In this document: positions 6,974 through 23,648 of the stretch, one piece after another
How the letters are laid out: every line of letters begins with the position of its first letter
Position numbering within the stretch: the stretch's first letter is position 1
Assembly (NCBI GenBank): GCA_019456285.1
Contig: VRUE01000005.1
Coordinates: 20,346 to 57,218 of the forward strand
Reading direction: 5' to 3'
DNA from: Solirubrobacterales bacterium
GTDB lineage: Bacteria; Actinomycetota; Thermoleophilia; Solirubrobacterales; 70-9
DNA length: 36,873 nt
Translations under genes and position numbers: made by a program
The notes under the pieces: model-generated
The model's input: only the letters and a program-made list of their open reading frames with translations
Databases searched by the model: none
What the model was told of the DNA's origin: nothing

Positions 6974-8041
6974 ATGCGCATCGCCTCAGTCGAGGTCACT
7001 CCCTACGCGCTCCCCCTCCGCGAGCCGTACGTGACCGCGGCGGGACGGCTGGAGCGGCGCGAGATGGTGCTGCTGCGGCTGCGCTGCGAGGACGGCCTGG
7101 CCGGTCTCGGCGAAGCGGTGCCGCTCTCGCTGCGCGGGGGGATGGCGCTGGCCCGCGTGGTCGATGAGCTGGAGCGGCTCGGCGACTGGGAGTCGTTGGA
7201 CGAGGCGACGCTGAGCGCCGCCGGCGCGGCCCTCTCGCCGCCGGCCCGCTGTGCGGCGCTGACCGCCCTGATGGACCTGCGAAGCAGGCGGGCGGCAGCC
7301 GAGCGCGACGCCCCCTCTGCCGATCCGCCCCAGCCGGTGCGTTGCAACGCGACCCTGGTCGCGGGCGAGCCGACCGCGGTCGCCGCCGACGCCGAACGCT
7401 GGGCCGGGGACGGCTTCTCCAGCTTCAAGCTGAAGCTGGGCAGCCGGGACGGGGACGACGTCGGCCAGGTGCGAGCGGTCCGCAGCGCGCTCGGACCCGG
7501 GGCGCGGATCCGCGTCGACGCCAACGGCGCCTGGGACGTGGCGACGGCGAAGCGAACGCTGGCGCAGCTGGAGCCGCTCGACGTCGAGCTCGCCGAGCAA
7601 CCGGTCGCGACTCTCGGGGAAGCCGCGGAGGTGGTCGGCACGACCTCGATCCCGATCGCCGCCGACGAGAGCGTCGAGAGCCGCGCCGACGCGGAGCGCG
7701 CGGTCGCGATCGGCGCCTGCGGGCTGGTCGGGCTGAAGCTCTCCAAGGTCGGCGGGCCGGAGGCGGCGATCGGGATCGCCGAGGTCCTGCCCTCTTTCGT
7801 CTCCAGCGCGCTGGACGGGGCGATCGGGATCGCGGCGTCCGCGCAGGTTGCCCAGACGCTGAGCGAGGCGGCCGGCCCCGGCGACCCGGGCCTCGCGCAC
7901 GGGCTGGCCACCCAGCGCCTCTTCTCCTCCACCGTCGCCTCCGTCGAGTGCGAGCTGCGCGGCGACATGCTGCACCTGCCCGAGGGCCCGGGCCTCGGGG
8001 TGGAGATCGACGAGGCGGCGCTGGACGCCCACCGGCTCTAG
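6974..8041 (+). CDS. menC: o-Succinylbenzoate synthase (enolase superfamily)
   Basis: MRIASVEVTPYALPLREPYVTAAGRLERREMVLLRLRCEDGLAGLGEA; FSSFKLKLGS; RIRVDANGAWD; LAEQPV; AADESV; LKLSKVGG. Confidence 0.88.
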   Translation: MRIASVEVTPYALPLREPYVTAAGRLERREMVLLRLRCEDGLAGLGEAVPLSLRGGMALARVVDELERLGDWESLDEATLSAAGAALSPPARCAALTALMDLRSRRAAAERDAPSADPPQPVRCNATLVAGEPTAVAADAERWAGDGFSSFKLKLGSRDGDDVGQVRAVRSALGPGARIRVDANGAWDVATAKRTLAQLEPLDVELAEQPVATLGEAAEVVGTTSIPIAADESVESRADAERAVAIGACGLVGLKLSKVGGPEAAIGIAEVLPSFVSSALDGAIGIAASAQVAQTLSEAAGPGDPGLAHGLATQRLFSSTVASVECELRGDMLHLPEGPGLGVEIDEAALDAHRL

Positions 8042-15621: not shown

Positions 15622-17100
15622 ATGGCGAGCGGGCTTGCGGCGCGAAACGGGGGGCGGGCGGGCCTCGCCGCCCTGATCGCGATCCTGCTGCTGGGCCTGG
15701 GGCTGCGAGCCGCGTACGCCTGGGAGGGCCGGGCGCCCGTCTACGACGCGGTCGCCTACGGCCGCATCGCCGAGAACCTCGACGAGGGTCGCGGCTTCAG
15801 GCTGGGCAAGGCGGCGACCCAGCCGGCCGGCAACTACTCGCCGGGGCTGCCGCTGCTGGTCGCGGGCATGCACAAGGTCAGCGGCGGCGGCGAGCGCTTC
15901 GCCCGCCTCGCGCTGGCGCTGATCGGCGCCCTCTCGGTCCTCTTCGCCTACCTGATCGGCCGCCGCCTCTCCGGCCCGGCCGCCGGGCTGATCGGCGCCG
16001 GCGCGGTCGCGATCTACCCGGCCTTCCTCGAGTACCAGGGGATGCTGATGGGCGAGCCGCTGGCCGCCGCCCTGCTCTCGGGGGCGGTGCTGGCGATGCT
16101 CTGGGCCGGCGGTGAGGAGGGAGGGCGGGAGTCCCCGGCCGGCCGCTGGGTTTTTCGCCTGGGAGGGCGACGGCCGTCCGAGATCGTGGGTGAGGCGAAA
16201 AACAGGACGCCGCGTCCGCCCGGGGACCCCCACCCTCCCTTTGTCGGATGGTTGGTGCCGGGACTGCTGCTCGGGGGGCTGGCGCTGGTTCGACCGGAGT
16301 ACCTGGCGATCTCGTTGCCGGTTGCCGTTGTGGTTTTCGCGCGAGGGGGGCGGGATGAGTGGAGGGCCTGCTTGCTTCAGCCCGTGGTCATGCTCGTCGG
16401 GTTGGTGCTGGTCGTTGCCCCCTGGACGGTCCGCAACGCGATCGCCCTCGACCGCTTCGTGCCGATCTCGACCGGTGGCGGCCAGGTTCTCTTCGCCGGC
16501 GCCTACCTGCCGTCCGGCGGCGACCCGCAGCGGGTCGGCGAGGAGGTGCTGGAGCGCCATCCGGGGCTGCGGCGGCGGCTGGCGGCCGAATACCTGCCGC
16601 CGGGCGCCGCCCCGACGCTGGCCGCGGTGCTGGCCCGGGTCAGGCTCGAGCAGATCCTCGCCGCGCTGGCGGCCCAGCGCTACCCGAGCCTGAGCAGCGA
16701 CGCGGCGCTGGCGCGGCTGGGCCGCGAACGGCTCTGGGACGACGTCACCGGGCAGCCGCTCGACTACGCCGGCTTCGTCGCCGCCAAGATCGGCCGGATC
16801 TGGGCCCACGGCCCCCGCGATGTGATGCGAGAGCCGCTCTGGGCGGCGCTGCACTGGGCGCTCGTCGCCTTCGGCCTGCTCGGCCTGGTCGTCCTGGCGC
16901 GCCGGCGCCGCTGGGAGGCGCTTCTGCTGGCCACGATCCTGCTCTCGATCACCGCGCTCGGCGGGTTGCTTGTCGCCTCGCCGCGGCGGGTGCTGGTGAC
17001 GATGCCGCTGGTCGCTGCGCTGGCAGGAGTCGGCGCCAGGCAGGCCTGGGGCTACCTGAGCCAGGTGCGGAAGATCGCGTTGGCGAAGCCGAGGCCGTAG
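15622..17100 (+). CDS. GT39/ArnT-like multi-TM glycosyltransferase
   Basis: GT-C architecture with luminal acidic motif (YDAVAYGRIAENL), multiple TM segments, paralogous to the 18083-19426 product. Carries an extra ~39-aa Arg/Pro/Gly-rich segment. Confidence 0.8.
   Translation: MASGLAARNGGRAGLAALIAILLLGLGLRAAYAWEGRAPVYDAVAYGRIAENLDEGRGFRLGKAATQPAGNYSPGLPLLVAGMHKVSGGGERFARLALALIGALSVLFAYLIGRRLSGPAAGLIGAGAVAIYPAFLEYQGMLMGEPLAAALLSGAVLAMLWAGGEEGGRESPAGRWVFRLGGRRPSEIVGEAKNRTPRPPGDPHPPFVGWLVPGLLLGGLALVRPEYLAISLPVAVVVFARGGRDEWRACLLQPVVMLVGLVLVVAPWTVRNAIALDRFVPISTGGGQVLFAGAYLPSGGDPQRVGEEVLERHPGLRRRLAAEYLPPGAAPTLAAVLARVRLEQILAALAAQRYPSLSSDAALARLGRERLWDDVTGQPLDYAGFVAAKIGRIWAHGPRDVMREPLWAALHWALVAFGLLGLVVLARRRRWEALLLATILLSITALGGLLVASPRRVLVTMPLVAALAGVGARQAWGYLSQVRKIALAKPRP
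16117..16241. repeat. Palindromic element apparently inserted in frame in the GT39 gene
   Basis: Left arm agggagggcgggagtccccggccggccgctgggtttttcgcc pairs imperfectly with right arm ggcgaaaaacaggacgccgcgtccgcccggggacccccaccctccct. The encoded segment is absent from the paralogue. Confidence 0.75.
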
Positions 17101-18125
17101 CGGACCACGGCGGGCTTCTTGGAGTGGCCGTGGAGGCGGCGCTCGACCGTGATCGGGATCTCCTTGGCCGGGATGCCGCGCTTGATCGCCTCGATCATGA
17201 ACTCGGACGTATGGAACTGCTCCTGGCGGAGGACGAGCTGCGGCAGGACCGTGGCCCGCACCGCCCGATAGCCGTTCGAGCAGTCGGTCACATGGGTGCG
17301 GGTGATCAGCGAGACGAGGCGGTTGAAGAAGACGATGCCCAGCTCGCGGGCGAGGTGGTCGCGGTCGGCCCGGCCGAGGACGCGGGAGCCGTGGGCGACG
17401 TCGACCTCGCGCTCGAGGACCGGCTTGACCAGGCGCTCCATCTCCGCGGGCAGGTGCTGGCCGTCGGCGTCGAGGGTGACGACGACCTCGGCGCCGGAGT
17501 CGGCCGTCAGCCGGTAGCCGGTCCGCAGCGCCGCCCCACCGCCGCGGTTGATCACGTGACGGGCGACGATCGCCCCGTGCCGGGCGGCGACATCCCCGGT
17601 GCCGTCCCGCGAGCCGTCGTCGACGACGAGCACGGCGGTCGGCACGCCGCAGACCTCGTCCGGGATCAGGTCCAGAACGCAGCCGATGCTCTCCGCCTCG
17701 TCGTAGGCGGGGACGACGATCGCGATCTTGCCGCGGAAGCGCTCCGGGAGGCCGGCCTGGCGGAACTCCTCCCAGGCCAGCCCCTCGAGCACCGCGGAGA
17801 GCTGGCGCGAGTTGCGCCCCGCCTGGGAGATCGCCCGCAGGACGAGCAGGAAGAGGACGAAGATCGCGAAGACGGCGAGGCCGAGGATGCGGCCGCCGTT
17901 GCCCCTCTCGAAGGAGAAGGCCGAGAGCAGCTTGTCCGTCACTTCGGTGCCGGAGACGACCGCCAGCCCGAGCCCGGCCGCCAGCAGGATAAGGACGTCG
18001 ACGTTGCGCAGTGAGCGGCGGCGGAGGACGGCGAAGGCGACGATCCCGGCAGCGACGAGCAGGCCGGCGCTGCGAAGCGCGGTCAGCTCGGAGGGGAAGA
18101 TGCCTGCCAGGGGAGCCATGGGCAT
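17052..18125 (-). CDS. DUF2304-like membrane N-domain fused to GT2 (dolichyl-phosphate-mannose-synthase-like) glycosyltransferase
   Basis: N-terminal TM block LRRRSLRNVDVLILLAAGLGLAVVSG...; then IAIVVPAYDEAESIGCVLDLIP, VLVVDDGSRDGT, NRGGGAALRTGYRLT, VVTLDADGQHLPAEM, DCSNGYRAVR. Confidence 0.85.
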   Translation of the reverse strand: MPMAPLAGIFPSELTALRSAGLLVAAGIVAFAVLRRRSLRNVDVLILLAAGLGLAVVSGTEVTDKLLSAFSFERGNGGRILGLAVFAIFVLFLLVLRAISQAGRNSRQLSAVLEGLAWEEFRQAGLPERFRGKIAIVVPAYDEAESIGCVLDLIPDEVCGVPTAVLVVDDGSRDGTGDVAARHGAIVARHVINRGGGAALRTGYRLTADSGAEVVVTLDADGQHLPAEMERLVKPVLEREVDVAHGSRVLGRADRDHLARELGIVFFNRLVSLITRTHVTDCSNGYRAVRATVLPQLVLRQEQFHTSEFMIEAIKRGIPAKEIPITVERRLHGHSKKPAVVRYGLGFANAIFRTWLR

Positions 18126-19426
18126 CGAGAGAATAGGGCGGCGGAGCCCCTGACCAGCGCCGCAGCGGCAAGCGGAAAGATGAGTGTCATCAGGATCTCG
18201 TTGCGGCGGCTGGCGGCGAGCGACGCCGCGCCGACCCCGGTGACGATGACGATCGGCGTAGCCATCGCGACCAGCTCCCACCACCATCGCCGCCAGGCCA
18301 GCACCCCGAGGCCGGCCAGCGCCAGGACGACGATCGCGACCTGCACGACCCGGCCGGCGGTGCTGCTCATCGCCTCGCCGACACCCCCGCTCCACATCCG
18401 CCACACCTTGCGAGCGGTCATCCCGAGGTACCCGACCGGGTCCTCGCCGAAGTACCCCGAGAAGTTCTGCTTTCCGATCCTGCCCAGGGCCGAGTCCCGC
18501 GGCAGCTCGTGGTAGCGAGCGGCGACGCGGTCGAACAGCGGCGTCGGGTTGACCCGGTCCAGCGCTTCGGACCCGGGCTCGAGGCTGCGCCCCAGGTAGC
18601 GCTCCGCCAGCAGCGCCTTGACCCGCTGGTACTCGCCGTCGGCGGGCAGGAAGGTGCCGACGTAGAGCGCCTTGCCGCCGCCGGTCGAGATCGGCACCAG
18701 CCGGTCGAGGACGATCGCGTTGCGCGCCGCCCAGGGGACGATGGGAAGCAGAAGGGCGGCGGCGAGGAGCGTCGCGGCCGCGGCCCCCGGGCGCCAACCT
18801 CGCTCCCGGCCGACCCGGAGCGCCGCGAGCGCCGCGAAGGCGACCCCGACGACCAGGTACTCGGGGCGGATCAGCGCCGTCAACCCGAACAGGAGGCCGG
18901 GCAGCAGCCAGGAGCGCAGGCGTTCCTGGCTGCCCGCCCAGAGGAAGGCGAGGACGGCGGCCGGCAGCGTGAAGATCGCCGGCGGCTCGCTGAACAGCGC
19001 CCCGGTCGAGTGGATGAAGGGCGGGTAGACGGCGACCCCGAAGGCCGCGATCAGCCCGACCGACCGGCAGCTGATCCTGCGGCCCAGCAGGTACACGACG
19101 ACGATCGCGCCCACCCCCAGCAGCAGCTCGACGATCCGCGCCGTCCCTTCCCTGGCCCCCCCTGTCGCGCGAAAGGCGGCCGCGTAGAGCAACGGCGCCC
19201 CGGGCGACCAGTCGCTGGAGTCGCGGAAGCTCGGGCCCCCGTAGCTGCCTTCCTCGTAGAGCGCCTTGGAGAGCGCGTAGTAAGCGCGGGAGTCGTCGCC
19301 GGGCGGCTGCAGCGGCTCGACCACCCGGTAGGCGCGCAAGCCGAAGCCGAGCACGACGATCGTCGCCAGCAGGATCAGCGCGACGCGCCCGTGGCGCTCC
19401 AGCAGCAGCGGTCGCAGTCGGCTCAC
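18083..19426 (-). CDS. GT39/ArnT-like multi-TM glycosyltransferase (paralogue of 15622-17100)
   Basis: VLGFGLRAYRVVEPLQPPGDDSRAYYALSKALYEEG; LLGRRISCRSVGLIAAFGVAVYPPF; multiple TM segments; NAIVLDRLVPISTGGGKALYVGTFLPADGEYQRV shared with paralogue. Confidence 0.82.
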   Translation of the reverse strand: MSRLRPLLLERHGRVALILLATIVVLGFGLRAYRVVEPLQPPGDDSRAYYALSKALYEEGSYGGPSFRDSSDWSPGAPLLYAAAFRATGGAREGTARIVELLLGVGAIVVVYLLGRRISCRSVGLIAAFGVAVYPPFIHSTGALFSEPPAIFTLPAAVLAFLWAGSQERLRSWLLPGLLFGLTALIRPEYLVVGVAFAALAALRVGRERGWRPGAAAATLLAAALLLPIVPWAARNAIVLDRLVPISTGGGKALYVGTFLPADGEYQRVKALLAERYLGRSLEPGSEALDRVNPTPLFDRVAARYHELPRDSALGRIGKQNFSGYFGEDPVGYLGMTARKVWRMWSGGVGEAMSSTAGRVVQVAIVVLALAGLGVLAWRRWWWELVAMATPIVIVTGVGAASLAASRRNEILMTLIFPLAAAALVRGSAALFSRCPWLPWQASSPPS

Positions 19427-23332: not shown

Positions 23333-23648
23333 GGTCGGGATTCTAGAGGCCTGATTTGGGTTATCCACGCACACGGATGACGCCGCATGCCGTCGCTGGA
23401 TCGCCACCAGCGGGTCCTGTCGCCGGGGTGGGGCGCCCTCCTTGCCCTGCGCGCTGCTCCGCCGGACGGGACAAGGCACCGGATTCCGCAATCGCTCGGC
23501 TCCGCGGGATCCAGGTAGGGGGTGGAGCGTCTTGTACTTTTTCGCCGCCAGAATCACGGCAGTCCGACGACGCCCACCGAAAAAGTTAAGCGGAACCCCC
23601 TGCCCGTAGCCCGCGCTGGCTGCCCGGCCAGTTATTGTCCGGCCGACC

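Follow-up and report, generated by a model that had tools for sequence, protein, structure and literature searches.

An in-frame palindrome in a glycosyltransferase gene of a Solirubrobacterales bacterium as a probable copy of a dispersed repeat

Introduction

How did a long palindrome come to lie in frame inside a membrane glycosyltransferase gene? The question is raised by a stretch of 36,873 nt (the window) from a Solirubrobacterales bacterium (assembly GCA_019456285.1, contig VRUE01000005.1, positions 20,346-57,218 of the forward strand). An earlier reading made from the sequence only described an imperfect palindrome at 16111-16250 in the GT39 gene at 15622-17100, and its sequence, frame and palindromic structure are as described. 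We propose, with a probability of about 0.75, that the segment belongs to a palindromic DNA repeat, dispersed and non-autonomous, which resembles repetitive extragenic palindromes (REPs) or miniature inverted-repeat transposable elements (MITEs) and is restricted to two related Solirubrobacterales genera. The best-known palindromic repeats within protein reading frames come from Rickettsia, whose members are obligate intracellular bacteria; if the proposal is true, the presence of such repeats in soil bacteria with GC-rich genomes, in core genes as well as across species, would make the gain of protein sequence by this route more general. We found no report of such elements in Solirubrobacterales in the open-licence literature.

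The genus of the source organism is designated g1, and its sister genus in the same Solirubrobacterales family g11. The relatives examined are mostly draft metagenome-assembled genomes (MAGs), some of them incomplete, and the gene calls are our own and uncurated.

The insertion in the GT39 gene

The features of the locus are listed below, where R1 denotes the first covariance model of the element, built partly from the GT39 copy itself.

15622..17100, + strand: GT39-like (Pfam PMT_2, E = 1e-6) membrane glycosyltransferase, an open frame of 492 aa with the insert at about residues 164-208
16113..16245, + strand: type A palindromic element, in frame in the GT39 gene (R1 127 bits; copies by blastn; missing in orthologues)
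16116..16142, + strand: 5' outer arm of the hairpin, variable in sequence between copies with pairing kept (fold; covariation)
16144..16214, + strand: conserved core GCTGG-GTTTTTCGCC, loop, GGCGAAAAAC-AGGACG-CCGC (invariant columns of alignment A1; exact A-core scan)
16216..16242, + strand: 3' outer arm of the hairpin (fold)
18083..19426, - strand: paralogous GT39 gene without the insert, used for empty-state comparison (translation)

In the predicted fold, the main stem pairs inward from 16116/16242, and the core read on the bottom strand shows a CGTC tag, a stem and a CCA tail. Alignment with the paralogue at 18083-19426 gives the 39 extra residues that the sequence-only reading had counted. 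The nearest GT39 orthologues (genomes G019, G026, G033 and G012), 62-75% identical on both sides of the insert, do not have the segment. More distant orthologues also do not have it, with a loop of varying length. For G001 no verdict is possible, since contig ends truncate its orthologue, and in G002 the only homologues are more distant ones. On the available evidence, this comparison indicates that the GT39 copy is an insertion. An AlphaFold2 model of the protein, with a predicted template modelling score (pTM) of 0.84, gives a predicted local distance difference test score (pLDDT) below 50 at residues 166-197 and 199-204. The model places the insert between two membrane helices as a disordered loop. 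Most likely the insert is a stretch that is translated, disordered and tolerated, and not a new functional domain.

A repeat-induced misjoin in the MAG could in principle produce such an insert, and several contigs do end at copies of the element, as repeats that break assemblies would do. However, the GT39 frame is unbroken across the insert, with conserved homologous sequence flanking it at either end, and orthologous in-frame copies are found in independent MAGs, so that we give an assembly artefact hardly any credence.

The fold of the GT39 copy beats dinucleotide shuffles only moderately (z = -2.4; 2 of 200 shuffles equally good), because the region is GC-rich. Recurrence of the segment was therefore tested, and this recurrence is the convincing evidence for a real element.

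A family of palindromes in two sister genera

Searching the source genome with the GT39 segment by blastn revealed five other copies at E = 4e-5 or better. Two of them lie inside genes, namely dnaX and one for an MMPL transporter; the other three stand behind glnA, ahead of prfA, and between a short-chain dehydrogenase/reductase (SDR) gene and aconitase. The six copies align (alignment A1) with an invariant core and complementary arms, and RNAalifold folds them into one hairpin of 38 pairs, 12 of which are changed on both sides. R1 matches were found in 8 of 151 genomes, all of g1 or g11. A second covariance model, R2, describes a type B core; 21 of its 34 pairs are changed on both sides. Of 232 genomes from the order, 13 have R2 matches, and these too all belong to g1 or g11. 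Together, the R1 and R2 carriers amount to 14 genomes in two sister genera of one Solirubrobacterales family, with about 20 family copies in the source genome. The exact type A core pattern, scanned over about 85,000 species genomes, matched only in Solirubrobacterales MAGs. The copies expected elsewhere if the palindrome were a repeat, both between and inside genes, are thus found in the source genome and its relatives, and the sequence-only reading survives both of the refuting conditions that it had named, the other being an alignable segment in all orthologues across distant taxa. Spread by viruses was considered and set aside, as the exact core pattern was missing from the viral contigs scanned.

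The analyses below use part of the R1 and R2 matches, namely 129 full-length copies after truncated, fused and duplicate ones were dropped. The median model-matched length is 128 bp, with a core loop of about 30 nt. The core is conserved and asymmetric, whereas the outer arms vary between copies yet remain complementary. No match to Rfam was obtained at the gathering threshold or at E 0.5, and a known RNA family was accordingly rejected as the identity of the element. Integron attC sites were considered for type B on account of its RYYYAAC-like CTTAAC behind stop codons. Here the conserved part lies inside and the variable part outside, the reverse of the attC layout. This candidate was rejected on the layout and on the lack of arrays among the copies seen, with no formal test.

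The window holds a second copy, which according to the gene calls is probably intergenic, between divergent genes:

23497..23621, - strand: type B core (CTTAACTTTTTCGG..CGAAAAAGTACAAGACG), R2 83 bits, E = 1e-13

Beside it, at 23407-23461 (- strand), lies a 55-bp repeat that is 93% identical to a stretch of contig C97 (L395) of genome G000 and contains the motif GACAGGACCCGC, which is present in type D (see below) too. Directly upstream of the prfA-side copy, three tandem repeats hold GAGGGGGTGTCCGGCCGGTCGC and CCGCGGGTCCTGTCAC (L003, 1379-1500). Stop-proximal hairpins with similar outer arms and another core (TTGCCTGACTGGC..GCCAGCGGCACAAAACGTT), near 4716 in L097 and near 4726 in L086, possibly form a further subfamily. 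One more inverted repeat of the window, at 7647-7778, scored 17 against a null maximum of 15; it lies inside apparently conserved enolase-superfamily coding sequence and was taken as chance.

Copies inside other genes

In-frame status was judged by a codon-position G+C test together with alignments. In-frame copies of the type A/B family were found in dnaX, in the MMPL gene, in an ABC-ABC linker, in a GT4 enzyme and in the O-antigen ligase (Wzy_C) of G001; in addition, a large protein without a Pfam match has two in-frame element sites, common to G002. The MMPL copy is found in three species (G000, G002 and, with a flipped core, G001). The ABC-ABC linker copy occurs in G000, G001 and G019, and hence in both genera, so that this insertion appears to predate the split of g1 and g11. 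The dnaX copy sits in a linker. As in GT39, several of the in-frame copies occupy a variable loop or linker and lengthen the protein by about 40 residues. For dnaX and GT4, the surrounding linkers vary in all relatives, which makes the exact empty state less clear than for GT39.

The gene caller placed ten copies inside genes in g1, in both orientations, and none among the scored g11 copies. The ABC copy of G019 was recognised later, and intragenic g11 copies are therefore rare, not absent. The intragenic position is a minority state of the family, most copies standing directly behind stop codons. We suggest that an intragenic insertion would survive only if the copy were free of stop codons, the frame were kept and the loop were tolerant.

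Placement behind genes

Among about 125 intergenic copies, a same-strand (sense) stop codon lies at most 60 nt upstream of 81, and an opposite-strand (antisense) stop at most 60 nt downstream of 16; a copy usually follows a stop codon at a distance of 0-50 nt, in the sense orientation. The orientation counts take in paired and orthologous copies and are not independent. At tandem junctions of g1, 21 copies are sense and 2 antisense. The g11 junctions comprise 36 convergent, 30 tandem and 3 divergent ones, and at the convergent ones the sense stop is the closer of the two for 35 copies and the antisense stop for 2 (p = 1e-8, uncorrected for paired copies). No difference was found at the convergent junctions of g1 (5 vs 5) or the tandem junctions of g11 (16 vs 15). 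Many g11 copies form inverted pairs within one intergenic region, which accounts for part of the antisense copies.

The spacers of some g11 inverted pairs (L110, L112, L107 and L115) hold another hairpin, of the kind GCGGTCGCAGTTC..GAACTGCGACCGC. Also observed were one copy that has lost its core and two that look like fused halves of inverted pairs (L079, 4698-4777; L120, 4954-5083; L123, 572-729), which suggests deletion within paired hairpins.

This placement is what would be expected if the family were transcription terminators or stabilising hairpins of 3' untranslated regions, kept by selection on RNA, with accidental intragenic copies. The hairpins are very stable, with a median of 42 Watson-Crick pairs, and at convergent g11 junctions the inverted pairs put one copy behind each gene. 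On the other side stand the ten intragenic g1 copies in both orientations, the lack of an Rfam match and the composition of stems and flanks. The T content is 16.5% behind the hairpin against 17.6% before it in the analysed copies, with no U-tract directly behind the hairpin. Stem mismatches over the 129 copies comprise 161 G.T and 153 A.C (p = 0.69), and in the arms G.T is even the rarer (93 vs 123), whereas selection on RNA should favour G.T there. As both a T-run and a G.T excess are lacking, an intrinsic terminator was rejected as the only explanation, and we consider the RNA explanation as a whole doubtful.

How the palindrome is kept

Where the arms of orthologous copies have changed in pairs, selection on RNA and DNA template switching can be tested directly against each other as the process that keeps palindromes. 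At nine orthologous site pairs, with stems found by Watson-Crick pairs only and each pair scored in both directions (the events are not independent), 92 pairs differed on both sides and 95 on one side; in 67 of the 92, the change restored Watson-Crick pairing. When the partner column was slid by 1-3 positions as a control, 34-55 both-side and 176-227 one-side changes were counted. Paired changes, the absence of a G.T excess and the absence of a U-tract favour upkeep of the palindrome at the DNA level over an RNA terminator. In addition, the MMPL core of G001 is flipped, with 99 of 129 positions matching in flipped and 89 in unflipped orientation. Spacer inversion is predicted by template switching (PMC8604942). 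The paired arm changes, the mismatch pattern and the flipped core fit arm homogenisation and spacer inversion by template switching, although the G001 flip may instead be an independent second insertion. In the proposed mechanism, copies would spread by some enzyme acting on DNA, and DNA polymerase switching template between the arms would copy one onto the other, keeping the palindromy and at times inverting the middle.

Paired arm changes and a flipped core would also suit a palindrome that arose locally, short inverted repeats having been extended by successive template switches with no foreign DNA inserted. Such local growth could explain the outer arms only; it cannot give the same core (GCTGGGTTTTTCGCC..GGCGAAAAACAGGACGCCGC) at unrelated sites in several species, and this shared core makes it very improbable as the origin of the element.

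Several points weigh against a mobile DNA repeat. The core by itself has more G.T than A.C mismatches (68 vs 30), making a role of the core at the RNA level possible. The bias to one orientation behind genes is unexplained by a model acting on DNA only, unless insertion itself is targeted. No target-site duplication was readable, and no close relative offered an empty site at high DNA identity. PF01797, the Y1 tyrosine transposase family of REP-associated tyrosine transposases (RAYT), was not found in the carriers among 61 genomes searched, some of them incomplete MAGs. A REP mobilised by RAYT was accordingly rejected. With neither a mobilising enzyme found in the search for PF01797 nor a readable target-site duplication, transposition itself stays a presumption.

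A second palindrome family, type D

A distinct 86-bp palindrome, type D, also occurs in g1 and g11:

L164 about 820-905; L379, L380, L384, L387, L393: type D stretches, often in frame inside genes

Blastn matches, some partial, number 7 in G000, 10 in G001, 4 in G019 and 1 each in G012 and G026. A GT39 homologue of G001, likely the counterpart of the paralogue at 18083-19426, carries type D at the same loop where the GT39 insert sits. Similarly, the O-antigen ligase of G000 has type D at the loop where that of G001 has type A. Type D is also in frame in NuoC (G000, G001), RecG (G012), Lhr, dnaX (G000, G019, G026) and a GT87-like protein below the Pfam cut-off. An unpaired motif, ACARGMC, was tried as a family-wide tag; it is exact in 36 of 49 type B, 9 of 16 type D and 13 of 77 type A copies (background 0.8%) and was given no part in the argument.

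We hold it an even bet that several unrelated palindrome families repeatedly enter the same tolerant loops (DnaX, O-antigen ligase, GT39 paralogues) and core proteins (NuoC, RecG, Lhr), with template switching rewriting their arms jointly. They would then be a recurring source of new protein segments outside Rickettsiales, in two genera of uncultured soil Actinobacteria.

Comparison with known systems

In its anatomy the core is similar to the CGTC-tagged REPs (Di Nocera et al. 2013, PMC3733652). That group, to which RPE-4 and RPE-6 belong, has an unpaired foot tag CGTC (or TGTC or CCTC), a short tail that is mostly CCA, a length of 20-40 bp and a loop of 4-5 nt; Actinobacteria are not mentioned there. 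Here, an unpaired CGTC stands at one foot in 91 of 129 copies, A/T pairs lie near the stem foot, and a CCA tail is present in 74 of 77 type A copies, type B having mostly TAAG or TGAG (pattern count). The other foot tags, CGTT (18) and CGGC (17), are not among the variants named in that paper. Both groups are found mostly behind genes, at convergent or unidirectional junctions, form inverted pairs and occasionally lie inside genes, those for replication and repair among them, and for neither was a dedicated transposase found. However, the present element is about 128 bp long, has a core loop of about 30 nt and is enclosed by long outer arms whose sequence differs from copy to copy. Because size and loop length do not fit, it was not filed as a CGTC REP.

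Enterobacterial repetitive intergenic consensus (ERIC) sequences and MITE-like intergenic palindromes share the imperfect palindrome and the genome-wide dispersal, and ERIC is of similar size. They differ from our element in its variable arms around a conserved core, and no target duplication or terminal boundary is shown for the latter. The coding palindromes of Nematomorpha mitochondria are likewise long inverted repeats inside protein-coding genes; they are mitochondrial, with both arms coding, and the abstract mentions no dispersed family of hairpins that share a core (PMC6649704).

The Rickettsia palindromic elements (RPEs), to which the sequence-only reading had drawn an analogy, are palindromes of similar size (about 150 bp) that occur both between genes and, with the frame kept, within genes unrelated to one another, with inserts predicted to be compatible with protein structure (PMC10969869). 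The analogy is one of behaviour: both kinds of element enter unrelated genes in frame, at loops and linkers. The present hosts belong to a different phylum and are GC-rich, and the element differs in its strong preference for the 3' side of genes and in its conserved core inside variable arms.
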